A DNA stretch of 64,000 bases from an uncultured Prevotellaceae bacterium. GTDB taxonomy: Bacteria; Bacteroidota; Bacteroidia; Bacteroidales; Bacteroidaceae. Shown piece after piece: positions 3,621 through 45,519 of this stretch. A model generated the notes under the pieces. It was not told where the DNA came from, did no database searches, and was given only the letters and a program-made list of their open reading frames with translations. The position numbers and the translations under genes are program-made. The stretch covers positions 1-64,000 of the forward strand of contig CAMVPA010000004.1 of NCBI GenBank assembly GCA_947169245.1, in the 5' to 3' direction. Every line of letters starts with the position of its first letter. The first letter of the stretch is position 1.

Positions 3621-5126
3621 TCACATTAACGGTTTTGAAAGTTCCACCTGTGTCTTCGGCCAGTTGACGAGATAGAGTTGCTGGGTGGCGCGGGTGAAGG
3701 CGGTGTAGAGCCAGTGGTAGTATTCGGGGGTGAGCATGTCGTCGGTCATGTAGCCCTGGTCAACGTAGACATGTGCCCACTGGCCGCCTTGCGCCTTGTG
3801 GCAGGTGACTGCGTAGGCAAACTTCACCTGCAGGGCGTTGTAGTAGCGGTCTTCCTTGAGTTTTTTCAGTCGGTCGGCCTTGCGGGGAATGTCGGCGTAG
3901 TCAGCCATCACGCGTTCGAAGAGCTGCTGTTGCTGCTCGCCAGTGAGTGCGGGTGCCTCGCTGGTAAGGGTGTCGAGGAGTACGGTGGCGGTAAGCTCGA
4001 AGTCGTCGTAGTCGGGGAACGTCATGGTGACATCGGCAAAGCGGAAGCCATGCTGTTCATGAACGTTACGGACGCGCTGGACGACAGCGATGTCGCCGTT
4101 GGCGATGAAGGAGTTCTCTATCCAATGATAGTTGTTCTTCACAATCATGAGACGGTCGCCGCGACAGAGTTCATCCTCGCGGTCGAGGATGGTGCGGCGG
4201 ATGCCCTCATTGTAGATGTTCGCCCGCTTGTTGCTACGGGTAACGACGATGGTGTCGTCGAGGCCCGCACGACTGTAGCTGGTAGCGAGCTGCTCAATGA
4301 GCTCGTCGCCAGGGACGACGCGGATGTCGGAGAAGCCATTGACTCTTATCGAGGGTACGGGGGGGCGGGGGTACGGGGGGGCGAGGGCACCTTGCACGCC
4401 ACTCAATTCAGCCTCCGAACTATTCTCGCACCCACGTGCCCCCGTCCCCCCGTACCTTCGAATACGCGTGGCGTTAAACAGGATTCCCGACTCGGCGGCC
4501 TGACGGAGCACCTCATTGAGGGTAGCCTCGTAGACGTGGAGGTCATAGCCACGGAGACAGGCGGCACTGAGGGCAGGGCTCTCCGTCTCACCCACGGGCG
4601 GCAGCTGGGCATGGTCGCCGATGAGAAGCAGGCGACAGCGTTGACCGCCGTAGACGAACTGCAGAAGATCATCGAGCAGACCGCTTCCACCGAAGGACTC
4701 GCTGCCGCTGAGACTAACCATCGAGGCCTCATCGACAATGAAGAGAGTGTCTTGGGCTACGTTGTAGTTTAGCGAAAAACCGCCCTCCAAGGACTTCTGG
4801 CGGTAGATGCGCCGGTGGATGGTGTAGGCGGGCTGTCCGGCATACAGCGAAAAGACCTTGGCGGCACGTCCCGTCGGGGCCATCAGCACCATTTTCTGGT
4901 GCAGAGCCATCATGGCACGCACAATGGCAGCAGCAAGTGTCGTTTTACCAGTACCAGCGGCACCACGCAGGATCATGACCGATGGCTGATGAGTCAAGGG
5001 TGATGATTGAGGGGAAGTAGAAGAGGCGAAAAAGTCGGCAAACACACCGATTGCCTGCTCCTGTTCCACCGTCGGAGGAAAGCCAAAAGCCTGTCGGATA
5101 TGATATTTTAACTCATCAGTTACCAT
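3621..5126 (-). CDS. RecD-like AAA ATPase / helicase (ATP-dependent exodeoxyribonuclease-like)
   Basis: Walker A GAAGTGKTT, DEASM, VTCHKAQGGQWAHVYVD, YTAFTRAT; contains an in-frame repeat insertion near 4350-4462. Confidence 0.88.
   Translation of the reverse strand: MVTDELKYHIRQAFGFPPTVEQEQAIGVFADFFASSTSPQSSPLTHQPSVMILRGAAGTGKTTLAAAIVRAMMALHQKMVLMAPTGRAAKVFSLYAGQPAYTIHRRIYRQKSLEGGFSLNYNVAQDTLFIVDEASMVSLSGSESFGGSGLLDDLLQFVYGGQRCRLLLIGDHAQLPPVGETESPALSAACLRGYDLHVYEATLNEVLRQAAESGILFNATRIRRYGGTGARGCENSSEAELSGVQGALAPPYPRPPVPSIRVNGFSDIRVVPGDELIEQLATSYSRAGLDDTIVVTRSNKRANIYNEGIRRTILDREDELCRGDRLMIVKNNYHWIENSFIANGDIAVVQRVRNVHEQHGFRFADVTMTFPDYDDFELTATVLLDTLTSEAPALTGEQQQQLFERVMADYADIPRKADRLKKLKEDRYYNALQVKFAYAVTCHKAQGGQWAHVYVDQGYMTDDMLTPEYYHWLYTAFTRATQQLYLVNWPKTQVELSKPLM
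4351..4462 (-). repeat. Family-1 core-plus-arms repeat inside recD-like gene
   Basis: Core CACCTTGCACGCCACTCAATTCAGCCTCCGAACTATTCTC with G/C-rich complementary arms. Confidence 0.85.
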
Positions 5127-18293: not shown

Positions 18294-19850
18294 CTACATC
18301 AGCGGCGAAAGCATGCGGATAAGCGACTCGCAGAGGCGCACGAGGAAGCGGGGGCGGATGCGTTCAGACAGAGAAGAGAGCGCCACCGAGGAAGCTTCGT
18401 CGTCGATGAATATCTGCTTCATGCGCGTGGCCACCTCCTCGCCATACATGAAGATGTTGGCCTCGAAGTTGTTTTCGAACGAACGGAAGTCGACGTTCGC
18501 AGAGCCGCAGGTACAGACAGAGTCGTCGCAGACCATCAGCTTAGAGTGCAGGAAGCCGACCGTGTAGAGACTGACACTGATACCTGCCTGCTGGGCCTCA
18601 CGCAGATAGCTGCGGGCAGCCCACTCCACAAACCAGGAGTCGTTACGTATGGGCACCAACAGGCGCACGTCGACACCCGATGCCGCTGCCGTTTTCAGGG
18701 CAAAGAACACTGGTTCGGTGGGCAGGAAGTAGGGTGTTTCGATATAGACGTACTTCCTGGCACCCAGAATGATACGTACGTAGCCCTGCATAATCTCGGG
18801 CTGCGGCACGACAGGACTGCTGGTGACGGTCTGGAGCAAAGCAAACAACCCACCCCCAGCCCCTCCCGAACGGGAGGGGGGATTTAACGCCCCATCACCC
18901 TGTCTCTGCTCTTGAAGGAAGTCAGACTCCCCTCCCACACGGGAGGGGTCGGGGGTGGGTTTGGGAGATGGGTAGTAGTTCTTACCACTGACAAGTGAGC
19001 GGTCGACAAAGTACCAGTCTATCAGGAAGGCACGCTGCAGGGAGTAGACACCCGTACCACTGACGCGCACCATCGTGTCGCGCCAAGGCGCTCTCCTACT
19101 CTCCTTCTCTCCTTTTCTCCTTCCCTCCTTTACTCCTTTCACATATCGCTCTGCGATATTCATTCCTCCGATGTAGCCCACGCTGCCGTCGATGACAACG
19201 AGCTTGCGGTGGTTGCGGTAGTTCACCTTGCTGGTGAACGAGGGGAAGCGGACGGGCAGGAAGGGCGACACCTCAATGCCCTCCTCGCGCAGACGCTCGA
19301 AGAAGCGGTTCTTGACGCTCCAGCAGCCCACGTCGTCGTAGATGAGCCGCACCTCCACCCCACTCCGCGCCTTGGCTATCAGGGCATCGCTGACAAGACG
19401 TCCCAGCGGGTCGTCCTCGATGATGTACATGTCGATGTGGACGTGGTGACGAGCCTGGGCAATGTCGCGCAACAACGCTGGGAAGAACTGATAGCCGTCG
19501 GTCATCAGCTCCACGGCGCTGTCCTTGAACGGCAACGAGAAGCTCTCACCGATGAAGAGATCTATCAACGACTTGTGCTGCTCGGGCAGTCGCAAGTCCT
19601 GCTGTTCGACGAAACCCAGCATCGAGCGCTTCGACAACTGGTCGAGCTGTCGCTGACTGACGAGTCGCTCCCTGCGCGTGTTGACACCAAAGAACAGATA
19701 GAGCACAATGCCCGCCACGGGTACGAACCAGATGACCAGTGCCCACGCCATCGTCTTGGCCGGCTGGCGGTTGTCCATCACTACATGTACCACGACTATC
19801 GCAGCAATGATGTAGTAGAGGATGGCGAGTATGAGGTTCAGACTGGGCAT
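18294..19850 (-). CDS. cls: Cardiolipin synthase (PLD family) with two in-frame repeat insertions
   Basis: Two HxK(x4)D motifs: NYRNHRKLVVID and LHSKLMVCDD; N-terminal TM pair. Confidence 0.92.
   Translation of the reverse strand: MPSLNLILAILYYIIAAIVVVHVVMDNRQPAKTMAWALVIWFVPVAGIVLYLFFGVNTRRERLVSQRQLDQLSKRSMLGFVEQQDLRLPEQHKSLIDLFIGESFSLPFKDSAVELMTDGYQFFPALLRDIAQARHHVHIDMYIIEDDPLGRLVSDALIAKARSGVEVRLIYDDVGCWSVKNRFFERLREEGIEVSPFLPVRFPSFTSKVNYRNHRKLVVIDGSVGYIGGMNIAERYVKGVKEGRRKGEKESRRAPWRDTMVRVSGTGVYSLQRAFLIDWYFVDRSLVSGKNYYPSPKPTPDPSRVGGESDFLQEQRQGDGALNPPSRSGGAGGGLFALLQTVTSSPVVPQPEIMQGYVRIILGARKYVYIETPYFLPTEPVFFALKTAAASGVDVRLLVPIRNDSWFVEWAARSYLREAQQAGISVSLYTVGFLHSKLMVCDDSVCTCGSANVDFRSFENNFEANIFMYGEEVATRMKQIFIDDEASSVALSSLSERIRPRFLVRLCESLIRMLSPLM
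18847..18962 (-). repeat. Family-2 116-bp repeat inside cls
   Basis: AACCCACCCCCAGCCCCTCCCGAACGGGAGGGG...core...CCCCTCCCACACGGGAGGGGTCGGGGGTGGGTT; about 6 differences from the queE copy. Confidence 0.93.
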
Positions 19851-19911
19851 TGTTTCTGGGTGGTGGGGTTGGGTGATGGGTGGTGGGTGATGGGTAGTTA
19901 GTGATGGGTGG

Positions 19912-20634
19912 CTACTTGAAGCCTACGAGCTTGTGGGTCTGTAGCGAGAGGCGCCACTGGGGGTGGGCCTTGATGTAGTCGACACACCTATTTATTATAA
20001 GCGCGTTACGCTCGGCATCGCCCGTGTCGCAGGGTTGGAGGTAGAGCCTCCCCCCGGCCCCCTCCAACTGGAGGGGGAGCTGAGCCGTCTGTTGCGGCAC
20101 ATCCTCTTCCGTAGTAAACACCACCTTCAGTTCATCGGGCATTCTCCCCCTCCAGTTGGAGGGGGTTAGGGGGAGGCTCCCTTTCGGCGACACCGTCAGC
20201 CAGTCGAGGTTCTGGGGAGCGGGACGGGTGCCGTTGCTCTCCATCGCCACCTCAAAGCCGTGCTGGTGCAGCAGGTCGACGAATGTCTCGTCCACCTGGA
20301 GCGTGGGCTCGCCACCAGTGAGGACGACTAACCCACCCCCAGCCCCTCCCGAACGGGAGGGGAGATTTAACGTCCCATCACCCTGTCTCTGCTCTTGAAG
20401 GGATTCAGACTCCCCTCCCACACGGGAGGGGCTGGGGGTGGGTTGGAAGGCTTGCGTTCTGATTTCTGCAACAATCTCCTCGGCCGTCATCTCACGGTAC
20501 TCGTCGAAGTCAGTGTCGCAGAACGGACAGCGCAGGTTACAGCCCGCGAAGCGTACGAACACAGCCGCACGTCCCGTGTTGTAGCCCTCGCCCTGCAAGG
20601 AGTAGAAAATATCGTTAATGCGAAATACCTTCAT
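19912..20634 (-). CDS. queE: 7-carboxy-7-deazaguanine synthase QueE with three in-frame repeat insertions
   Basis: INDIFYSLQGEGYNTGRAAVFVRFAGCNLRCPFCDTDF; LTGGEPTLQVDE; YLQPC...WRLSLQTHKLVGFK. Confidence 0.92.
   Translation of the reverse strand: MKVFRINDIFYSLQGEGYNTGRAAVFVRFAGCNLRCPFCDTDFDEYREMTAEEIVAEIRTQAFQPTPSPSRVGGESESLQEQRQGDGTLNLPSRSGGAGGGLVVLTGGEPTLQVDETFVDLLHQHGFEVAMESNGTRPAPQNLDWLTVSPKGSLPLTPSNWRGRMPDELKVVFTTEEDVPQQTAQLPLQLEGAGGRLYLQPCDTGDAERNALIINRCVDYIKAHPQWRLSLQTHKLVGFK
20330..20445 (-). repeat. Family-2 116-bp repeat inside queE
   Basis: Nearly identical to 18847-18962, including the unpaired core. Confidence 0.93.
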
Positions 20635-20689
20635 AACGTCAGCAAACTATTCAGCAATAATAGCGGTAGCAAACTCTACACTCTACGTT

Positions 20690-21025
20690 CTACACTTCGT
20701 ACGTCGCCACGTTTCCCTCGCACTCCTGCACGGTGGCCTTGTAGCAGTGGGGCACACGCTCCACCACCCATCGGGCCAGGTTCTCGGCCGTGGGATTGAA
20801 GGGCAGCACGTCGTTCAGCACCTGATGGTCGAGAGGCTCCTTCACGAGTCGCTTAATCTCGCTGAAGTCGATGACCATGCCGTTGCGGTCGAGTTGCTCC
20901 GACTTGCAGTAGACGATGATAATCCAGTTATGACCGTGTACATGCGTACACTTACTCTCATAGTCGAGGTCGAGCCTGTGGCAGGCCGAAATCTCAATAC
21001 GTTTCTCAATGTAATACATAGACAT
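20690..21025 (-). CDS. queD: 6-carboxytetrahydropterin synthase QueD
   Basis: EISACHRLDLDYESKCTHVHGHNWIIIVYC; DHQVLND; adjacent to queE. Confidence 0.93.
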   Translation of the reverse strand: MSMYYIEKRIEISACHRLDLDYESKCTHVHGHNWIIIVYCKSEQLDRNGMVIDFSEIKRLVKEPLDHQVLNDVLPFNPTAENLARWVVERVPHCYKATVQECEGNVATYEV

Positions 21026-21033
21026 TTTACGTT

Positions 21034-23148
21034 TTAGACAATGATCTCGCGACCCAGCTTCTTGGCCAGTGCTTCGCAGAGCTCCTTGGTTTCCTTATGT
21101 TCTTGTAACAGTTGCATCATCTGTTCCTTACTCAGTCCGGGGGTGCGCAGTTCCTGGACGATAGTCTTCAGACGCACCTCGACCAGATTCAGACGGTAGG
21201 TCATCACCAGCTGTTCCACACGCTGGCGCAGTGACCCCTCACGCTCAGCCACAACGAAGCGGCCGCTCAGCTGGTGACGGTCGACGGACAGTTGTGTGGC
21301 CAGATGGCTCACCTCGATATCGGGGTGGTTGGTGAAGTAGCTCATGGTGTGGAAGCTCGCCTCGCCACTATGGGCGACAGCCTCTGCCAGTATCTGGTTG
21401 TAGAGCGGATTCGAGAACGTCAGCCCGTCCTGGCCCAGGTCGTAGTCAACGTACTGCGCCACGTTGAACGAGATGGTCTGCCCGTCCTCCGTCTCAATGT
21501 TGTCGTAGATAATCTCTTCGCCATGACGCACCACCTCACGGATGAGAAGGGTCTCGATGGAGTTGTTGGTGGAAATTCGGGGGGCGGGGGTTGCTCGAGG
21601 TTCGAGGTGCGAGGTTAGCTTATCGTCAGCGTTGAGCCCCGATTCCGCGCTATAACTATTCTCGTGCCCACGTACCTCCGTACCACCGTACTCCCGACTT
21701 TCACGAGCCCTCTCTTTCTCCTTCTCCTCCAAATCCTTACGGATATACCCGTTCATCGACTCCATAAGCGTCTGCTCCTTCAGTCCCAGACGGGCAGAGA
21801 GTTCAGTGAGATAGGTGGAACGCAGGATGGTGTCAGGGATGACCGCTATGCTGCGGACGATGCCGCTGATGCCTTCCGAGCGCTTCACGGGGTCGTTGAC
21901 GCCCTCCACCGTCAGCCGTGTCTTAAAGGCGATGAAGTCCTGCTGGTTCTCGTCGATATAGCGTCGCAGCTCCTCCGTCGAGTGCTTGCGTGCGAAGGAG
22001 TCGGGATCGTCGCCGTCGGGCAGTAGCAACACCTTGATGTTCATACCCTCCTGCAGCAGCATGTCCGTTCCGCGCATGGCAGCATGGATGCCGGCCTCGT
22101 CGCCGTCGTAGAGCAGTGTGATGTTCTGCGTGAACCGGCGCAGCATCTTGATCTGATAGATGGAGAGCGCCGTGCCCGAGTTGGCCACCACGTTCTCGAT
22201 GCCTGCCTGGTGCATGGCGATGACGTCGGTATAGCCCTCGACCATGAAGACGCGGTCTTCCTTCACGATAGCCTTCTTAGCCTGATAGATACCGTAGAGC
22301 TCGCGCTCCTTGTGGTAGATGTCAGAGTCGGGCGAGTTGACGTACTTCTGCGCCACACCCTTCGTCCGTGCATCCAGCACACGTCCGCCGAAGGCCACCA
22401 CCTTGCCTGATACGTTCAGCCAAGGGAAGATGGCACGACCGCTGTATCTGTCTACCAATCGAGGTGCGAGGTGCGAGGTGCGAGGTGCGAGGTCACCTTG
22501 CACGCCACTCGAATCGGCCTCCGAACTATTCTCGGACCTCGTACCTCGCACCTCGTACCTCGAACTATCTTCGTACCCCCGTTCGTAGCACAGTCCCGTC
22601 TTCACCAGGAACTCGGCCTTGTATCCTGCCTTCTGTGCCGCCTGTGCCAGTGCGTCGCGCTTCTGCGGCGCATAGCCCAACTGGAACTTCTCGATGATGT
22701 CGTCGCGGATGCCGCGGCTGCGGAAGTACTGTTTGCCGATAGCCAGACCGTCGGGGTCGTTCTTCAAGGTGTTGTGGAACCAGTCCTTGGCCCACTCGTT
22801 GACGATGAACATCGACTCGCGCTCGTTCTGCTCACGCCGCTCGTCGTCGGTCATCTCCTTCTCCAGAATCTCGATGTTGTACTTACGGGCCAGCCAGCGC
22901 AGGGCCTCGGGGTAGGTTATCTGCTCGTGCTCCATCAGGAAACCGGCTGGCGAGCCACCCTTGCCGCACACGAAGCAGTGACAGATATTCTTGGCTGGCG
23001 ACACCATGAACGATGGGTTGCGGTCGTCGTGGAACGGACACAAGCCCTTATAGTTCACGCCGCTCTTACGAAGCGTCACGAACTCGCCCACCACGTCGAC
23101 AATCTGCGCCGCGTCGAGAATCTTGTCTACTGTCGCCCTGTCAATCAT
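21034..23148 (-). CDS. dnaG: DNA primase DnaG with two in-frame repeat insertions
   Basis: MIDRATVDKILDAAQIVDVVGEFVTLRKSGVNYKGLCPFHDDRNPSFMVSPAKNICHCFVCGKGG; TOPRIM VFMVEGYTDVIAMHQAG. Confidence 0.95.
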   Translation of the reverse strand: MIDRATVDKILDAAQIVDVVGEFVTLRKSGVNYKGLCPFHDDRNPSFMVSPAKNICHCFVCGKGGSPAGFLMEHEQITYPEALRWLARKYNIEILEKEMTDDERREQNERESMFIVNEWAKDWFHNTLKNDPDGLAIGKQYFRSRGIRDDIIEKFQLGYAPQKRDALAQAAQKAGYKAEFLVKTGLCYERGYEDSSRYEVRGTRSENSSEADSSGVQGDLAPRTSHLAPRLVDRYSGRAIFPWLNVSGKVVAFGGRVLDARTKGVAQKYVNSPDSDIYHKERELYGIYQAKKAIVKEDRVFMVEGYTDVIAMHQAGIENVVANSGTALSIYQIKMLRRFTQNITLLYDGDEAGIHAAMRGTDMLLQEGMNIKVLLLPDGDDPDSFARKHSTEELRRYIDENQQDFIAFKTRLTVEGVNDPVKRSEGISGIVRSIAVIPDTILRSTYLTELSARLGLKEQTLMESMNGYIRKDLEEKEKERARESREYGGTEVRGHENSYSAESGLNADDKLTSHLEPRATPAPRISTNNSIETLLIREVVRHGEEIIYDNIETEDGQTISFNVAQYVDYDLGQDGLTFSNPLYNQILAEAVAHSGEASFHTMSYFTNHPDIEVSHLATQLSVDRHQLSGRFVVAEREGSLRQRVEQLVMTYRLNLVEVRLKTIVQELRTPGLSKEQMMQLLQEHKETKELCEALAKKLGREIIV
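21578..21700 (-). repeat. Diverged family-1-like repeat inside dnaG (copy 2)
   Basis: Arms GGGGGGCGGGGG...GAGGTTCGAGGTGCGAGGTT / AACTATTCTCGTGCCCACGTACCTCCGTACCACCGTACTCCC; different centre. Confidence 0.75.
22459..22575 (-). repeat. Family-1 repeat inside dnaG (copy 1)
   Basis: Core CACCTTGCACGCCACTCGAATCGGCCTCCGAACTATTCTC flanked by GAGGTGCGAGGT.../...ACCTCGCACCTC. Confidence 0.9.
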
Positions 23149-23550: not shown

Positions 23551-24987
23551 TCTGAAAATGAAGAATTAGCCCACAAAGCCAGGATTCTCCTGAATCAAAA
23601 CCGTCCCCTTGATTCCGCCAAGGCCTGTGTCGAAGAGGCGCTGCCCTACATCAAAGACGAGATGCAGTTCGACGATGCCAGCACCATCTATATGGCGGCC
23701 TGCGAGGTGGCGATGGCCGAGAAGCAGTGGCAGAAGGCGCTCGACTACGCCCTGAGGAGCGTTCATCCTGACTCGACGGCCACCTACGCCGACAAGGGCG
23801 GCTACATGCTGCTGGCCGAAATCTACACGGAGCTGGGACAGAAGGGGAAGGCTCGCGCATACATGAATAAGGTGTACGACATGATGAACCGCTACGCCAC
23901 CGACCACTACCAGAGCGGCCTGTCACAGATGGAAGTGCTCTACGAGACACGCCAGAAGGAAGCGCAGATAGCACAGCTGGCCCGCGAGCGGCGGCAGCAC
24001 CTGTGGGTGATAGGTGTTGGGTGTTTGGTGTTGGTGGTCACTGTGCTATTGCTCTTCTACTTCCAGCTGGCCCACCGTCGGCAGAAGGCGCTGCTGGCCG
24101 CGAAGGTGGCATTGGAGACGGAGACGAAGGAGCGCCGCATCCTGGCCCGCGACCTACACGACGGCCTGGGCGGCATGCTGTCACTGCTCAGAATAAGGAG
24201 CCTCACCCCCGACCCCTCTCCAAAGGGCGAGGGGAGTGAGTACATAAAGCTGCTTGACAACATCATTGTCGAACTGCGGCGCATGGCCCACCACTTGATG
24301 CCTGAGGAACTGCTGAAGAACGGACTGGTGTCGGCACTCAACGACTTCGCCGTCAGCGTACCCGGCGCCACCTTCCAGTTTATTCAAGCAGAAGGGGTGA
24401 CAGCTCCCCTCTCCAGTCGGAGAGGGGTTAGGGGTGAGGCTCTGGAACTCACGCTCTACCGCTGTGCCTACGAGCTGGTGAACAACGCCCTGAAGCACGC
24501 CGAAGCCTCCCACATCAATATCCAACTGATGCTTGATATATCAATGCCAGGGGGCAGCGGCATTAACTTCTGCCAGCAGGTGGTCAGCGACTTTCCGAGA
24601 ATGAAAATCCTGGCCATCACCATTCACGACGAGTACAGCGTCATTCAGCGCATGCTCGACAGCGGTGCCCACGGCTACGTACTGAAGAGTGCATCTGTGC
24701 AGGAACTGCTCGACGCCATCACTGCCGTCTACCAAGGCGAACGCTACATCAGCCATGAGGTGGAGGACATCATCCGTCAAGGTGAGAGCAAGGCGGTGGT
24801 ACTGACAACAGTAGAGAGAAGCATCCTTCGCCTGATTTGCGAAGGGCACACCAATCCGGAAATTGCCGTCAAACTGAGCCTCAGCACCGAGACCGTCAAC
24901 TGGTACCGTAAACGCCTGCTGACCAAGTTCGGTGCCAAAAACGCCGTCGGGTTAGTGACGCTTGCAATAAAAGAGCGACTGCTATAA
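23524..24987 (+). pseudogene. Chimeric/collapsed two-component gene: TPR + HisKA_3 histidine kinase fused to the C-terminal part of a NarL/LuxR response regulator
   Basis: DLHDGLGGMLSLL...YELVNNALKHAEASHINIQLML then directly DISMPGGSGINFCQQVV...KSASVQELLDAI...LRLICEGHTNPEIAVKLSLSTETVNWYRKRLL; kinase G-boxes and first half of receiver missing. Confidence 0.65.
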
Positions 24988-24995
24988 GCCGATGT

Positions 24996-26780
24996 TTACT
25001 TCAGGTACTTTGACAGTTCCGAGCCTATGTCACGCAGTCCCTTGGCAAAACTCTGGGCGTTCATCTGTGCACCAAGCTTCGAGGTGTGGGTGTGGTCCTG
25101 CTTGAAGTACTTGTCGCCGGCTTTCTGCTTGATGGCAGCAATCTTGGCTTTGGCCTTCTCCTTGTCCTGAGGCAACTGCTTGACACTGAACTTCTTGTCG
25201 AGGAAGTCGGCCGAGATATTGTGCAGGTCGACGAAGGCAACGCCCGTCTGCTCCACCACCTCGCGATACCAACGGCCGTAGGAGTCGTCGCGACGCTCCA
25301 CCTTGCCGCCAGGCCACTCGTTGCGCGGGGTCAGCGAGACGAGGATGGGCGTGGCACCCTTCTCGCGGCAATCGTCAATCATCTTGCGGAGATACCAGCC
25401 AAAGCTGTAGACCACCTCGTACTGGCCGTTGTCGAGCTTATAGACGTGACAGGTGTCCTGAGTGCCGGGAATGACGCCACGGGCCTTCGCATCGGCGATG
25501 GGGCAGATGTCGTTATGGCCGAACTCAATGGTGACGTAGTCGCCGGGCTGCAGCGAGTTGTACACTTTCTCCCACAGTCCCTCTTTAATAAAGGTACGCG
25601 TGGAGCGTCCTGCCCGTGCAGCGTTGACCAGGGTGATGCGCTTTTCGTCGAACACCGTCTGCGCCTGCGAGGCCCAGCCCCACATGCCGTCGTTGTCCTT
25701 ATCGGCGTTCTTCACCGTAGAGTCGCCCGTGAAATAGACCACTGGTTTCTTGCGAGGTGCGAGGTACGAGGTGCGAGGTGCGAGGTCACCTCGCACGCCA
25801 CTCGACTTTGCCTCCGAACTATTCTCATACCTCGACAGTTCCACGTTCTGCATCATGGCCTGCAACGTCTGCAACTGAGGGTTCTTGCTGTAGTAGAGTC
25901 CCTCGGCAGCACTGCGGGCGTTCATCTCGGCACCAAACTTCGAGGTGTGTATCTTGTCGCCCAAGAAGTGGTACTGCTGCTTCCAGCGGCTGTAGGAGTC
26001 GAGCTTCGCACCGCTCATTTCGTTCAGGTCGACGAAGGGCACACCCTCCGTAGCAGCAACGTAGGCCGCCCACTCCGTCTGGGGCTTGCGCACAATCTTG
26101 CCCTTGGCGTCGAAGGCGTCGCGCGGCGTCAGCGACATCAGTATGGGGTTGGCTCCACGGGCGCGCGTCTCCTTTATATACAGGCGCAGGTAGTGTCCGT
26201 AACTGTAGACGGTGTCCTGACGTTGCGTGCGCTGGTTGAAGCCCACGTAGCAGGTGTCCTCGTCGACACCGGGGATGACGGCGCGGGCTCGTTTCGCGTC
26301 GAAGAAGTCGCCATTGTCGTTATGGCCGATGGAGATGACCACCCAGTCGCCGGGCTCCAAGGCATTGCGGACGGCAGGCCACAGGTCGGTATAGAAGGTG
26401 CGTGTAGACATGCCGCCAAGCGCCTGGTTCTCGACGGTGATCTTCGCGGCGTTGAAGTACTGTGGGAAGTAGTAGCCCCAGCCCCACTGTCCGTTGTTGC
26501 CATTACCCAGCGTGCCATTGCGCATCGTCGAGTTGCCCACAAGGAAGAGCACGGGGTTCATGTCCTTACGAGTGGAGCCTGGCTTGGGGCGCGACATCAG
26601 CGCCTTGCCGATGCTGTCGGGCGTGTTGTCAACCACCTTGTTGACATCCTCGATGGGGTCGGGCAGGTTGTCGAATCCCTGTGCCCTTACTGCTGAAAGA
26701 GGAGACAGGAGAGTGGAGAGTGTTGAGGCAACAGGAAGGAGGAATGTAGAAAATGCAATAAGTAGTAGTTTTGTTTTCAT
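24996..26780 (-). CDS. Rhamnogalacturonan acetylesterase-like protein, tandem SGNH hydrolase domains
   Basis: Two copies of G(N/D)STMRN/TVKN...GHND...HTSKFGA/HTSKLGA; repeat insertion in the inter-domain linker. Confidence 0.88.
   Translation of the reverse strand: MKTKLLLIAFSTFLLPVASTLSTLLSPLSAVRAQGFDNLPDPIEDVNKVVDNTPDSIGKALMSRPKPGSTRKDMNPVLFLVGNSTMRNGTLGNGNNGQWGWGYYFPQYFNAAKITVENQALGGMSTRTFYTDLWPAVRNALEPGDWVVISIGHNDNGDFFDAKRARAVIPGVDEDTCYVGFNQRTQRQDTVYSYGHYLRLYIKETRARGANPILMSLTPRDAFDAKGKIVRKPQTEWAAYVAATEGVPFVDLNEMSGAKLDSYSRWKQQYHFLGDKIHTSKFGAEMNARSAAEGLYYSKNPQLQTLQAMMQNVELSRYENSSEAKSSGVRGDLAPRTSYLAPRKKPVVYFTGDSTVKNADKDNDGMWGWASQAQTVFDEKRITLVNAARAGRSTRTFIKEGLWEKVYNSLQPGDYVTIEFGHNDICPIADAKARGVIPGTQDTCHVYKLDNGQYEVVYSFGWYLRKMIDDCREKGATPILVSLTPRNEWPGGKVERRDDSYGRWYREVVEQTGVAFVDLHNISADFLDKKFSVKQLPQDKEKAKAKIAAIKQKAGDKYFKQDHTHTSKLGAQMNAQSFAKGLRDIGSELSKYLK
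25752..25836 (-). repeat. Family-1 repeat in SGNH esterase linker
   Basis: GAGGTGCGAGGTACGAGGTGCGAGGTGCGAGGTCACCTCGCACGCCACTCGACTTTGCCTCCGAACTATTCTC. Confidence 0.88.
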
Positions 26781-26916: not shown

Positions 26917-28278
26917 ATGCTAAAACTATTATTACGACTCTGGGCCGACCAGAAACGAAGGAACTTCAAATGGGGTAAGCTCTTCGGACAGCTCTACTTC
27001 TTCGGACTGTTTCTGGTAATCAGCATCATCGTCACCTTTGCCGTACATGAGGAGGTAGGCGATCTTGACAACGTGGCGAAGGTTGTCAGCATCATTGCTG
27101 TCAGTATTATCGTGCCCGACTTTCTGCACAAACTGCTGATGAAGCACGATGAGACGGTGATGGACCACTACCTGAAGAGCAAGCCCATTCCCGACCGGGC
27201 GTGGAACAGATTCCTGCTCGTGGGCAACCTCGTGAACTATTGGAACTGGGCTATTCCCTTGCTGATGCTGCCCTTCTGTCTGCTGTTCATGGATTGGGCG
27301 GACGCACTGCTGTCGTTCCTTCTGTTGGCGGCCGTCTCAATGGTCGGTGGCGTGGCCATCACCGCTTTCCGTCGAGCCAAAGGCTGGACGAACAAGTGGC
27401 CTGTATTGATGGGAATGGTGATATGGCTCATCATGGCCTTCGTCTACTCGCTGACAGCAATCATCCTGCCGTGGGGTGTTCACATCATTGGGTTCTTCCT
27501 GCTGTGTGCCGGCGGCATTGCCGTGTTCTACAACTACCTTTGCGACCTGCGTCGCTACGGCGAGGAGAAGGCAAAGAAAAGCCGCCTGTTCCTCTCGGGG
27601 CAGTCATCGCTGTTCTCGATGGAGTACATCAGCGTACTGCGCTCCAAGCGCCTACGTATAGGAGTGCTCCTGCTACCGATGATATTCGTGTTCAACAGCT
27701 ACACGCAGATTCCTCAGGGTCTTGGTCCTATGTTTTACATGATGCTGATGTTTGCCATCTTCGCACCGTCGATGATGCTGAGTCAGTGGGTCTTCGGCAT
27801 CGAAGGCAACTACTTCGACGGTCTGTGGACGAAACCCATCGACATCCGTACCATCCTCACGAACAAGTACTGGTTCTATGCCATACTAAACATCATCCCT
27901 ACCATACTGGTGCTGCCCATCATCTGGATGAGCGACCTGTCGCCCTGGGTGTTACCTGTCACCTGGCTCTTTACGGTCGGACTGGGTAATCTGGTAGAGA
28001 TGCCCACGGCCCTGATATCGTCGAGGGTGGAGTTGTTCCAGTCGGCCTTCTTCAACTACCAGGGTGCCTCGATGGCCGTCAACATGTACAGCTTCTTCGT
28101 CCTCATTCCCTTGGCAGTCTACGTGCTCTGCATGTGGCTGCTGCCCCTGAACATCGCGCTCATCGTGCTGGCTGCCATAGGCATCGTCGGCATAGCCCTG
28201 CACCAGGTGGTCATCGGCTGGATAGCCCGCAGGTATGAGGCGAACAGGTACAAGAACTTTGAGAGATATAGGAGTTAA
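26917..28278 (+). CDS. DUF5687 family membrane protein (ABC exporter permease-like)
   Basis: 453 aa polytopic, directly upstream of an ABC ATPase. Confidence 0.75.
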   Translation: MLKLLLRLWADQKRRNFKWGKLFGQLYFFGLFLVISIIVTFAVHEEVGDLDNVAKVVSIIAVSIIVPDFLHKLLMKHDETVMDHYLKSKPIPDRAWNRFLLVGNLVNYWNWAIPLLMLPFCLLFMDWADALLSFLLLAAVSMVGGVAITAFRRAKGWTNKWPVLMGMVIWLIMAFVYSLTAIILPWGVHIIGFFLLCAGGIAVFYNYLCDLRRYGEEKAKKSRLFLSGQSSLFSMEYISVLRSKRLRIGVLLLPMIFVFNSYTQIPQGLGPMFYMMLMFAIFAPSMMLSQWVFGIEGNYFDGLWTKPIDIRTILTNKYWFYAILNIIPTILVLPIIWMSDLSPWVLPVTWLFTVGLGNLVEMPTALISSRVELFQSAFFNYQGASMAVNMYSFFVLIPLAVYVLCMWLLPLNIALIVLAAIGIVGIALHQVVIGWIARRYEANRYKNFERYRS

Positions 28279-28334
28279 GGAGTTAAGGAGTTAAGAAGTT
28301 AAGAAGTTAAGAAGTTAAGGAGTTAAGGAGTTAA
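28271..28334. repeat. 8-bp tandem repeat (RRAGTTAA) x8
   Basis: ggagttaa x3, gaagttaa x3, ggagttaa x2 between two CDS. Confidence 0.9.
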
Positions 28335-28339
28335 GAATT

Positions 28340-29050
28340 ATGGAAATCAAGATACAAAACCTCGTCAAGCAGTATGGTAAGAACACCGTACTCAACATTC
28401 CCGAACTGACCATTGGCTCGGGCGAACTCATAGGACTGGTGGGAAATAACGGCGCCGGCAAAACCACGCTGATGCGACTTATCCTCGACCTCATTGAGGC
28501 GACAGAAGGCCACGTGGAGGTTGATGGCCTCCTTGTCACCGAAGACACTACGTGGAAACAGCATACCGGCTCGTTCATCGACGGCCACTTCCTCATCGAC
28601 TACTACACGCCTGAGGAGTACTTCGGATTTATTGCACAGGTCTACCAGTTGACCAAGGACACTCTCGACAACCGCCTGGAGGCATACCGTCCGCTGATGC
28701 ACGACGAGATTCTGGGCACGAAGAAGTACCTGCGGCAGTTCTCTGAGGGAAACCGCCAGAAGATTGGCATCATCGGCGCCATGCTCATCAACCCCAAGGT
28801 GCTGATTCTCGATGAGCCGTTCAACTACCTTGACCCCACGTCGCAGATTACCGTTGCCAAACTCATCCGCCAGATGAACGAGCAGTTGGGCACCACCGTC
28901 ATCATCTCCAGCCACAACCTGAGCTTCGTCTCAGAGATTTCAACACGCATCCTGCTATTGGAGAAAGGTGTGGTCATCAAGGACTTGCCCAACCATGACG
29001 GCAGTGCCACAAAGGAGTTGGAAGACTACTTTAATACTGTTGAGCAGTAA
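28340..29050 (+). CDS. ABC transporter ATP-binding protein
   Basis: Walker A GNNGAGKTT, Walker B VLILDEPFNYLDP; signature-like FSEGNRQK. Confidence 0.92.
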   Translation: MEIKIQNLVKQYGKNTVLNIPELTIGSGELIGLVGNNGAGKTTLMRLILDLIEATEGHVEVDGLLVTEDTTWKQHTGSFIDGHFLIDYYTPEEYFGFIAQVYQLTKDTLDNRLEAYRPLMHDEILGTKKYLRQFSEGNRQKIGIIGAMLINPKVLILDEPFNYLDPTSQITVAKLIRQMNEQLGTTVIISSHNLSFVSEISTRILLLEKGVVIKDLPNHDGSATKELEDYFNTVEQ

Positions 29051-29191: not shown

Positions 29192-31771
29192 ATGAAAAAC
29201 TGTACACTTAAAAGAACAATGGCTCTTGTGGCCGTTATCCTTACCACGGTTGGAGTGAAGGCAGCCGACTTTGTTGTCGACGGAATTTCCTACAACATTA
29301 CCGACAAGAACGGCAAGATTGTCGCCGTCGTTGCAGGCTCTACAAAGTACACGGGCAACGTCACCATCCCAGGCACCGTTACCAACAACGGAACGACGTA
29401 CACGGTGAAAGCCATCGGCTCGTACGCATTCCAGAACTGTAAAGACCTGACAAGTGTGAGCATCGAGAACAGCATCGAGAACATTAACAACCGTGCTTTT
29501 CAAGGATGTAACAACCTTTCTGAGTTTACATGGACTAACAGCATCCGCTCTATTGAAGACTACGCTTTCGACGGGTGTACTCGTCTGGCAAACGTCACAC
29601 TAAGCAGTGCACTCAGATCAATAGGTGCAGGTGCGTTTGAGAACTGTAGTGGCATGACAAAGCTCACCATCAATGAAGGTTGTACCGTAATAGCAGGATT
29701 CGTAAACTGTACAAAACTAACTTCTCTCAACATCCCGAACAGTGTTACTTCTATTGGCAGCTCAGCATTCAGTGGCTGTAAAGCACTGACCAGCGCCACC
29801 ATCGGCGACGGGCTGAAAACCATACCTGCCTACTGCTTCCAAAACTGCACATCGTTAGAATCGGTACACATCGGAAAGAAGGTGGAGAATATTAACAATC
29901 GCGCCTTCCAGAATTGCAATAGTTTGTCAGATATCAACTGGACAGACAATATCCGCTATATGGGCGACTACGCATTCAATAATTGTACACGTCTGACACG
30001 CGTAACGCTGAGTGCTGTCCTTGAAACGATGGATGCCGGTGTGTTCGAGGATTGCACAGGCATCACCTCTCTTACCATCCATGAAGGCTGTGCAGTCATC
30101 GGCAGTACGGCATTTATTGGCTGTACCAAACTTACTACTGTCAACATTCCCAACAGTGTAACGGCGATGGGAGGTTCAGCCTTTGCAGGTTGTAAAGCAC
30201 TGACCAGCGCCACCATCGGCGACGGGCTGAAAAGCATACCTGCCTACTGCTTCCAAAACTGCACATCGTTAGAATCGGTACACATCGGAAAGAAGGTGGA
30301 GAATATTAACAATCGCGCCTTCCAGAATTGCAATAGTTTGTCAGATGTCAACTGGACAGACAACATCCGCTATATGGGCGACTACGCATTCAATGCATGC
30401 ACTCGTCTGACAAACGTCACGCTGAGTGCTGCCCTTGAGTCGATGGACGGTGGTGTGTTTGAGAACTGCACTGGCATCACAACGCTCACCATCCATGATG
30501 GTTGCGCCGTCATTGCAGGCTCGTCATTCAGCGGATGTACTAAACTTACTTCTGTTAGCATACCTAACAGCGTCACGTCAATGGGTGGTTCAGCCTTTGC
30601 TGGCTGTAAAGCACTGACCAGCGCCACCATCGGCGACGGGCTGAAAACCATACCTGCCTACTGCTTCCAAAACTGCACATCGTTAGAATCGGTACACATC
30701 GGAAAGAAGGTGGAGAATATTAACAATCGCGCCTTCCAGAGCTGCAGCAACTTAGCCGAAATTAACTGGACGGACAACATCCGTTTTTTGGGTGATTATG
30801 CATTTAACAATTGTACACGTCTGACACGAGTTGTCCTGAGCAGTGTACTTGAGAATATGGACACTGGTGTGTTCGAGAACTGCACTGGCATCACAACGCT
30901 CACCATCCATGATGGTTGCGCCGTCATTGCAGGCTCGTCATTCAGCGGATGTACTAAACTTACTTCTGTTAGCATACCTAACAGCGTCACGTCAATGGGT
31001 GGTTCAGCCTTTGCTGGCTGTAAAGCACTGACCAGCGCCACCATCGGCGACGGGATGAAGGCTGTTCCAAGCTATTGCTTCCAGAACTGCACCCAGCTCT
31101 CCACGCTCAAGCTGGGCAAGAAGGTGTCAGCTCTGAACAACCGCTGCCTGCAGTATTGCCCAAACATTAAGACCATCACGATCTACAACAATGAGACACC
31201 TTCAGTAGGCGAGTATGTCTTCGACAACTACAACGCTACCCTCTACGTCCCTGCAGCAGCCGTCAACGACTACAAGGCTCACGCCACATGGAAGAAGTTC
31301 GCACAGATTCTGCCCATCGTCGAGAACCTGTACCTGATTATTGCGCAGTCGGAGAGTGGCCGCGTGATGATGCCTGTCACGAAGGGAATGAACTATGCTG
31401 TTGTCATCGAGGCCGAAGAGGGTTGGAAGGTGAACAGCGTGACCTACAACGGCACAGACGTTACAGAGCAGTTGGAGAACGGCGTCTTCACCACACCCGC
31501 CATGTATGAGAGCGGCGAGCTGCGCGTGGCCTACGAGTCGGCCACCGACGCCATCAGCGCACGCACCGTCAGCAACGTCAGAGTCTACGGACAGAGCGGC
31601 AACATCGTGGTAAGGAACGTGGAGGCTGGCGACATCGTCAACGTCTACACCACCGACGGCAAGCTCGTCAGCACGACCCCCGCCAACGGCAGCGAACTGC
31701 AGATTGGCGTCAACTCCGGTGCCGTCTACATCGTCAAAGCAGGCAACAAGACACTGAAGATTGCCATGTAA
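29192..31771 (+). CDS. BspA-like leucine-rich repeat (LRR_5) surface protein with C-terminal sorting-type motif
   Basis: Repeated SVTSIGSSAFSGCKALTSATIGDG units; C-term NVYTTDGKLVSTTPANGSELQIGVNSGAVYIVKAGNKTLKIAM. Confidence 0.9.
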   Translation: MKNCTLKRTMALVAVILTTVGVKAADFVVDGISYNITDKNGKIVAVVAGSTKYTGNVTIPGTVTNNGTTYTVKAIGSYAFQNCKDLTSVSIENSIENINNRAFQGCNNLSEFTWTNSIRSIEDYAFDGCTRLANVTLSSALRSIGAGAFENCSGMTKLTINEGCTVIAGFVNCTKLTSLNIPNSVTSIGSSAFSGCKALTSATIGDGLKTIPAYCFQNCTSLESVHIGKKVENINNRAFQNCNSLSDINWTDNIRYMGDYAFNNCTRLTRVTLSAVLETMDAGVFEDCTGITSLTIHEGCAVIGSTAFIGCTKLTTVNIPNSVTAMGGSAFAGCKALTSATIGDGLKSIPAYCFQNCTSLESVHIGKKVENINNRAFQNCNSLSDVNWTDNIRYMGDYAFNACTRLTNVTLSAALESMDGGVFENCTGITTLTIHDGCAVIAGSSFSGCTKLTSVSIPNSVTSMGGSAFAGCKALTSATIGDGLKTIPAYCFQNCTSLESVHIGKKVENINNRAFQSCSNLAEINWTDNIRFLGDYAFNNCTRLTRVVLSSVLENMDTGVFENCTGITTLTIHDGCAVIAGSSFSGCTKLTSVSIPNSVTSMGGSAFAGCKALTSATIGDGMKAVPSYCFQNCTQLSTLKLGKKVSALNNRCLQYCPNIKTITIYNNETPSVGEYVFDNYNATLYVPAAAVNDYKAHATWKKFAQILPIVENLYLIIAQSESGRVMMPVTKGMNYAVVIEAEEGWKVNSVTYNGTDVTEQLENGVFTTPAMYESGELRVAYESATDAISARTVSNVRVYGQSGNIVVRNVEAGDIVNVYTTDGKLVSTTPANGSELQIGVNSGAVYIVKAGNKTLKIAM
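29765..31105 (+). repeat. Intragenic 414-bp (138-aa) direct repeats in LRR gene
   Basis: TGTAAAGCACTGACCAGCGCCACCATCGGCGACGGG at 29777, 30191, 30605 and 31019, exactly 414 bp apart; about 135 bp identical or nearly identical in the first three. Confidence 0.92.
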
Positions 31772-41380: not shown

Positions 41381-42595
41381 CTAATTTTCGCCGACATTCG
41401 CCGCCTTTGAGGCAAAAAAGTGGCGATGCACCTCCTCAAGCAGCATCTCTACCAGTCGCGGAACGCCGTAGTTGTCGATGTCGTCCTCACGAATCCAGAA
41501 GTAGTCATCAGGCAACGTCGGCCGCTTGTCAGTCTCCAGCAGGTAGAAGTCGGCGTAGATGATGCGGTGGGTGAGGACGTGCTTGACGTTTCGGCGCAGC
41601 AAAACTGCACCGTGCTCTGGCTCTTGTTCCTTACCTCTCGCCTCTAACCTCTCACCTCTAACCTCTAACCTCTCGCCTCTAACCTCTAACCTCTCGCCTC
41701 CAACCTCTAACAACACCGGCTCATAGAGCCCCTGCCAGATGTCGCCAGCAGGCCGGCGATGGATGGCCGTCATGCCCTGACACCTTATATATACGTACGT
41801 GAGACGGCGCTCCTTGACCTTCAGGGTCTTGAGTTTCACAGGCAGTTCGCCCACCCTACCCTCGCGGAAGGCCACGCAGCTCTCCATCAGCGGGCAGGCC
41901 TCGCAACGGGGAGACTGCGGCGTACACTGGATGGCGCCGAAGTCCATCATGGCCTGGTTGTAAGTCCCCATCATCCTCCCCCGACTGGGGGAGGTTTCTT
42001 CTTCAAGGGAGGTTTCTTCTTCAGGGGAGGTTTCTTCTTCAAGGGAGGTTTCAAAAGCCGCCCCCAGCTGGGGGAGCTGGGAGGAGGCTAAGCTCTGTGC
42101 CAGCGCCGCGAACTCACGCTTGCCCTCAGTGGTGTTGATGGGCGTCGCGATGCCGAAGTGGCGGCTGAGCACGCGGTAGACGTTGCCGTCGACGACGGCG
42201 GCGGGCAGTCCGAAGGCGATGCTGCCGATGGCGGCGGCCGTATAGTCGCCCACGCCCTTCAGCCGGCGGAGCCCCTCGATGGTGTCGGGGAAGCCGCCGC
42301 GCTCCACCACCTGACGGGCGGCAGCATGCAGGTTGCGGGCCCGGCTGTAGTAGCCCAGCCCCTGCCACTCGCGCAGCACCTCGTCCTCGGAGGCGGCAGC
42401 AAGGTCGCCGACCGTCGGCCACCGGCGCATGAAGCGCTCCCAGTATGCCCAGCCCTGCTTGACCTGCGTCTGCTGCAGGATAATCTCGCTGAGCCAAATG
42501 GCGTAGGGGTCCCTGGTGCCGCGCCATGGCAGCTCGCGTCCGTTCTCACGGAACCAGTCGAGCAGCGTCGTTGTAAAGTAGTGGGAATCTTTCAC
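41381..42595 (-). CDS. mutY: A/G-specific adenine glycosylase MutY with two in-frame repeat insertions
   Basis: WFRENGRELPWRGTRDPYAIWLSEIILQQTQV; LKGVGDYTAAAIGSIAFGLP; FeS cluster CTPQSPRCEACPLMESC. Confidence 0.94.
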   Translation of the reverse strand: MKDSHYFTTTLLDWFRENGRELPWRGTRDPYAIWLSEIILQQTQVKQGWAYWERFMRRWPTVGDLAAASEDEVLREWQGLGYYSRARNLHAAARQVVERGGFPDTIEGLRRLKGVGDYTAAAIGSIAFGLPAAVVDGNVYRVLSRHFGIATPINTTEGKREFAALAQSLASSQLPQLGAAFETSLEEETSPEEETSLEEETSPSRGRMMGTYNQAMMDFGAIQCTPQSPRCEACPLMESCVAFREGRVGELPVKLKTLKVKERRLTYVYIRCQGMTAIHRRPAGDIWQGLYEPVLLEVGGERLEVRGERLEVRGERLEARGKEQEPEHGAVLLRRNVKHVLTHRIIYADFYLLETDKRPTLPDDYFWIREDDIDNYGVPRLVEMLLEEVHRHFFASKAANVGEN

Positions 42596-45393: not shown

Positions 45394-45519
45394 GACTTCT
45401 CCGGCGGCCCCACAGACTTCTCCGGCGGCCCCCCAGACTTCTCCGGCGGCCCCCCAGACTTCCACGGCGGCCCCGCAGATTTGTCCCACGGCCTGGGACA
45501 TTTCCACGGCGGCCCTGCA
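45394..45519. repeat. 21-bp GC-rich tandem repeat (GACTTCTCCGGCGGCCCCCCA) with degenerate copies
   Basis: Four clear units then diverged GATTTGTCCCACGG.../TTCCACGGCGGCCC units. Confidence 0.88.

Follow-up and report, generated by a model that had tools for sequence, protein, structure and literature searches.

Palindromic units that reside in frame within functional proteins have been described as Rickettsia palindromic elements (RPE) and as intragenic REPs (PMC3733652), and some REP superfamilies, such as the CGTC REPs, have no known transposase (PMC3733652). The EDxHD enzymes, meanwhile, are established homing endonucleases (PMC3943268), and one paper assigns DUF559 to the EDxHD homing family (PMC9403480). 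In the open-access PMC literature, where absence is no proof of novelty, we found no paper that linked DUF559 or COG2852 to REP repeats. How in-frame palindromic elements spread through proteins is so far unexplained, and a small endonuclease gene with the same ends, as described below, offers a testable candidate for the engine behind it.

Paired hairpin units in cls and queE

The window analyzed here is a 64,000-nt stretch of the genome of an uncultured Prevotellaceae bacterium (G000). A sequence-only reading of it had reported two near-identical 116-bp elements at 18847-18962 and 20330-20445, each with outer arms and two inner mini-hairpins, and both read in frame on the minus strand. Our results bear this out. 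The copies differ at 7 of 116 bp, the last difference falling on the final base and thus leaving 6 in 115, and a repeat search returned them at 95% identity over 115 nt. The outer arms are AACCCACCCCC/GGGGGTGGGTT and the mini-hairpins CCCCTCCCGAACGGGAGGGG/CCCCTCCCACACGGGAGGGG, while the host open reading frames encode PLD domains in the case of cls and a radical SAM domain in that of queE, with PTPSPSRVGGES as a predicted insert-encoded peptide in Cls or QueE. The features are as follows.

18294-19850, minus strand: cls-type open reading frame (PLD domains), host of copy 1
18847-18962, no strand assigned: element copy 1 in cls; minimal arm-to-arm unit 18848-18960, 113 bp
18847-18857, plus strand: copy 1 left outer arm, AACCCACCCCC; inverted partner at 18951-18961
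18860-18879, plus strand: copy 1 left mini-hairpin, CCCCTCCCGAACGGGAGGGG
18880-18928, plus strand: copy 1 spacer, 49 nt, common to copy 2 only; its edges carry the family's inner motif
18929-18948, plus strand: copy 1 right mini-hairpin, CCCCTCCCACACGGGAGGGG
18951-18961, plus strand: copy 1 right outer arm, GGGGGTGGGTT
19912-20634, minus strand: queE-type open reading frame (radical SAM), host of copy 2
20044-20079, plus strand: lone REP in queE, from a different family; arms similar to those of the DUF559 gene at G000:C29 (L136)
20144-20179, plus strand: inverted partner of the 20044-20079 REP; the pair brackets native QueE codons
20330-20445, no strand assigned: element copy 2 in queE; minimal unit 20331-20443, 113 bp
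20330-20340, plus strand: copy 2 left outer arm, AACCCACCCCC
20343-20362, plus strand: copy 2 left mini-hairpin
20363-20411, plus strand: copy 2 spacer, 49 nt
20412-20431, plus strand: copy 2 right mini-hairpin
20434-20444, plus strand: copy 2 right outer arm, GGGGGTGGGTT

The match does not extend past the element edges, since the flanks of the two copies (20-100 nt) show 24-35% identity, which is background. A segmental duplication extending past 116 bp, one of two outcomes that the sequence-only reading had named as fatal to its claim, was ruled out because these flanks are unrelated. When folded as DNA, the two copies gave z-scores of -9.9 and -5.1 against shuffles. Their minimum-energy fold is one long stem rather than the three-way junction that had been envisaged, with the two mini-hairpins forming an alternative fold, and an Rfam search of 18600-20700 returned no match.

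The elements are far from confined to this pair, and so the second such outcome, a lack of further copies in the genome, does not apply either. BLAST of the element against its own assembly (2.93 Mb in 85 contigs, 75% complete, metagenome-type) gave 78 matches, and a census of the match places and the regions fetched around them, in which weakly matching arms may be missed, counted approximately 61 arms and at least 21 convergent pairs, with a further pair at C2:81838 seen in BLAST. Single units also occur, as do units of 44 bp built on one shared hairpin (in mfd on C27 and in gcvT on C3). Conserved across the family are the outer arm ACCCACCCCC, the mini-hairpin CCCCTCCC-NNNN-GGGAGGGG, and an inner motif of approximately AGYYTRRA. 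The conserved center that had been described, by contrast, is common to the cls and queE copies alone, and the spacer varies in sequence and length elsewhere in the genome. Because the neighboring pairs at C2:81838 and C2:83371 have their own 37-nt spacer in common, short units must have undergone copying or conversion between nearby sites. Together, the many copies, the empty sites in relatives, and the in-frame residence support a discrete family, in keeping with the general element design that had been suggested.

Other repeats are present in the window. Inverted REP arms (GAGCCTCACCCCC...) at 24198-24236 and 24404-24442 stand 167 nt apart in a histidine-kinase-type open reading frame, with native kinase sequence between them. 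A further repeat family, characterized by the heptamer arms AGGTGCG and a common core (CACCTTGCACGCCACTC...CCTCCGAACTATTCTC), occupies 4354-4435, 22460-22563, and 25753-25834 and is probably the one called family 1 in the earlier reading. Approximately four tandem copies of a 414-bp unit span 29461-31092, possibly a repetitive protein gene, and short tandem arrays of 7-8-nt units (one of 21 nt) lie at 28251-28352, 41620-41718, and 45394-45519.

Residence in open frames

Among the 21 convergent pairs, 16 lie in open frames that continue for 90 nt or more to either side. Twelve of those 16, and the C2:81838 pair with them, use one reading frame, PTPxPSRxGGE...PSRxGGxGGG, and the lengths of the pairs in that frame are 44, 101, or 113 bp, all of which are 2 modulo 3. 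The queE element is absent from relatives; relative to G022, it represents a net gain of 111 bp, or 37 codons, with approximately 5 nt of host sequence missing. Empty sites in relatives, which had been proposed as a check, were thus found, and no target-site duplication was seen in a comparison where the nearest relative is only ~83% identical and the junctions are approximate. At nine further orthologous sites, the length differences between G000 and G022 are multiples of 3 in eight, and several of these sites hold quite different repeat arrays in G022. In relatives, the cls site corresponds to a hypervariable linker, which in several of them carries heptamer-like arrays. More broadly, heptamer and octamer arrays fill the same cls and queE linkers in other species (L143, L140, L141, L159, and others), constituting a second kind of in-frame filler.

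Several of the same sites carry unrelated repeat arrays in relatives, so the in-frame pattern is explained in part by survival in permissive linkers. One could go further and suppose that no dedicated enzyme is involved, such that hairpin repeats arise and turn over in permissive linkers through replication slippage, template switching, and gene conversion, with only the in-frame versions surviving. The different arrays found in the same linkers across species fit such a process, as do the common spacers of neighboring copies, which local conversion would give, and the two queE loops around PDELKVVF, which in the window contain the REPs at 20044-20079 and 20144-20179 and where species-specific inserts are mutually complementary as a set across 16 species (observed mean score of 23.9, versus a maximum of 22.1 in 20,000 permutations). 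In these loops, the sequence changes but the complementarity persists, pointing to turnover of such repeats with the hairpin as template. As an account of the family itself, however, we consider an enzyme-free origin unlikely, as ~61 dispersed copies with one arm sequence need a copying process, and as it predicts neither the same ends on an intact nuclease gene nor clean empty sites upstream of ispF, both of which we observed.

A DUF559 gene between the same ends

In the same genome, at C10:8357-8834, a DUF559 open reading frame at ispF is bracketed by the family's arms and inner edges, and a DUF559 open reading frame lies inside the same arms and inner edges at ispF in the relative G083. Of 60 genomes, these two have the most REPs of the family, and the two closest nucleases of that lineage are found in them as well. 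The genus has a conserved gene order upstream of ispF, and the site was found in three states. Specifically, it is occupied by the nuclease unit and its arms in G000, G083, G130, G139, G068, and G077; it is decayed in G116, where the element's start codon and 3' arm are kept and the nuclease is gone, and G065, G153, and G086 have a single hairpin with the native start intact; and it is empty in G091 and G127. Given these occupied, decayed, and empty states, the nuclease unit behaves as an insertion.

The remnant in G116, an element-derived start and 3' arm, is what would be expected if the short units were relics alone, marking former DUF559 sites from which the nuclease gene was deleted and being themselves immobile; the inner edges of the short units also match those of the nuclease element. 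Nevertheless, the 49-nt spacer shared by cls and queE and the 37-nt spacer shared by C2:81838 and C2:83371 indicate that short units were copied or converted, and many short copies have fixed lengths (101, 113), such that we regard this explanation as very improbable.

The association between the nuclease and hairpin ends extends well beyond ispF. DUF559 genes were found in 18 of 22 genomes of the genus, and inverted flanking arms with a score of at least 15 were found at 23 of 30 fetched genus loci, versus 0 of 58 offset positions at the same loci. These offset controls replaced a comparison of matched and mismatched arms at the genus loci, which had little discriminating power because arms are generally alike between loci. 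Among 80 named Bacteroidota DUF559 loci taken from a genome-wide scan, 62 of the 79 scorable ones reached the same threshold (controls, 1/128), and 9 of 13 sampled loci passed in a plasmid collection, from Alphaproteobacteria, Deinococcus, and Cyanobacteria. A Neisseria locus from that collection has weak inverted ends, while loci of E. coli, Methylobacterium, and Photobacterium have similar hairpins on one side only, as judged by eye. In the E. coli record L299 of the plasmid collection, for example, the similar-looking GC-rich hairpin repeat CACCCTCACCCCAACCCTCTCCCTGAAAGGGCGAGGGGG follows the DUF559 gene, downstream of 1121, and has no counterpart on the other side. A strict hairpin regular expression, required on both sides, was matched at 29/76 and 17/30 DUF559 loci and at none of the offset controls. 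Against the association, G027 has a family-A match and no DUF559 match (its assembly is incomplete), and no cognate nuclease was established for G023, G026, and G075, the assemblies of G023 and G075 being incomplete.

The layout of the family is that of a REP doublet, and so classical REPINs mobilized by RAYT, an HUH Y1 transposase, were weighed as its source, with DUF559 as a passenger or as a gene that landed between REPs. Y1-type genes are present in the host genome (L028, L029) and in most relatives, and Bacteroidetes RAYT subclasses with atypical flanking structures have been described (PMC6006769). The host's own genes, at L028 1255-2598 (G000:C9) and L029 1192-1917 (G000:C38), are Y1-type (HUH) transposase-like open reading frames in which repetitive inserts separate the HUH motif from the tyrosine motif. 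However, the strict hairpin expression detected the family's hairpin type on either side of 0 of 31 Y1 loci in the sampled genomes, several of which carry their own, different REPs, and no family arm lies near L028 or L029, with the nearest on C9 ~9 kb off in this incomplete assembly. Thus, the DUF559 and Y1 systems are separate in these genomes, and the Y1 genes of the host and its relatives, which carry other REPs or none, were rejected as a RAYT partner for the family. Moreover, a passenger is not expected at nearly every DUF559 locus across phyla, and we consider mobilization by RAYT improbable.

Many DUF559 elements, too, reside in frame. In a set of 76 loci, 30 are fused in frame to a host protein on both sides and 15 on the downstream side only, and in 26 of the 76 the element brings a new ATG of its own, whose frame continues across the 3' arm into the gene downstream. 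Pfam places DUF559 inside LeuRS, ValRS, IleRS, MetH, and RecG and ahead of IspF and guanylate kinase, and detected no intein domain in eight fused or nested DUF559 open reading frames. In two distant LeuRS, the editing-domain profile is interrupted at the same point, with the match resuming at position 20 (L182) and position 21 (L200). The nuclease lineages track the target gene more closely than expected, with 27 changes on the tree, whereas 300 shuffles within host family never gave fewer than 36; the sampling followed similarity to one lineage, and the target counts thus represent a nonrandom sample. This lineage-target match limits vertical inheritance within families, which can explain part of it.

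The nuclease itself resembles known homing enzymes. Profile searches matched PDB 3hrl (NGO0050; E = 3.9e-34) and 3r3p, the catalytic domain of I-Bth0305I (E = 3.6e-7), and the predicted DUF559 structure (pLDDT 87.8) aligned with TM scores of 0.70 to 3hrl and 0.66 to 3r3p (by query length), with Vsr being weaker. The Vsr/EDxHD-type catalytic domain is accordingly a feature of the DUF559 relative and not of the 116-bp units. A defense-system reading of DUF559 was also considered and set aside, as the PADLOC matches were weak only, one of them being to a homing endonuclease model.

Proposed mode of spread and comparison with described systems

On this evidence, the 116-bp units are probably nonautonomous, translation-tolerant derivatives of a homing-like DUF559 endonuclease element, and we infer that the nuclease mobilizes them. 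Each end comprises an outer arm, a mini-hairpin, and a short inner motif (~40 nt in all), and the two ends are inverted around a variable spacer; the full-length relative carries the same ends around the DUF559 (Vsr/EDxHD homing-endonuclease-like) gene at the start of ispF. In the model we propose, the nuclease would cut target DNA, and a hairpin-ended unit would be copied into the gap during repair of the break; the nuclease element would be copied in cis, and the short derivatives would be mobilized in trans. Copies inside genes could survive where the palindrome can be read through in a usable frame and has a frame-preserving length, so that the host protein would gain a tolerated linker of ~15-40 aa or, alternatively, an element-supplied start codon.

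More tentatively, it is possible that these loci represent a widespread class of bacterial mobile element, in which a Vsr-like DUF559 gene within inverted REP-type hairpin ends spreads by homing-like break repair, without intron, intein, or transposase, resides in frame in conserved genes, and feeds short in-frame palindromes, thereby being the missing engine for orphan GC-rich REPs. The nuclease-plus-REP element thus stands a fair chance of being a separate class. If true, this would be a homing-type strategy that needs no splicing, the insert simply being translated, and it would suggest a role for DUF559, a family of "unknown function." Annotation is affected as well, in that nuclease inserts occur in conserved enzymes, LeuRS and RecG among them.

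Each of the described systems shares some of these features. Like REPINs and BIMEs, the family has two short inverted palindromes around a spacer, able to form a long hairpin, in many copies per genome, and a longer gene-bearing relative with the same ends. Unlike REPINs with RAYT, it has no GTAG or CGTC tag at the hairpin foot, its arms being CCCACCCCC/GGGGGTGGG; it lies mostly in frame inside genes (16/21 pairs), whereas REPINs are mainly extragenic; and it has no Y1/RAYT partner with its ends, the gene with those ends being the DUF559 endonuclease. For these three reasons, we do not file it under the RAYT REPINs. MITEs are likewise short gene-less units whose inverted termini are common to a longer gene-bearing relative, but here no DDE-type transposase partner was identified, and no target-site duplication was seen against a nearest relative ~83% identical.

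The EDxHD/Vsr-like homing endonucleases, exemplified by I-Bth0305I, share the nuclease fold and profile, as well as fixed sites in conserved genes that are empty in relatives. They differ in that no intron or intein was found around the DUF559 element, which is instead hairpin-ended, is translated in frame or supplies a start codon, and has short gene-less derivatives. Free-standing homing endonucleases exist, and so a missing intron or intein is not disqualifying. Finally, the in-frame insertion of the family in otherwise intact protein genes is like that of RPE, a likeness of residence; RPE come from another phylum and probably differ in sequence, and the family described here has a nuclease-bearing full-length relative.
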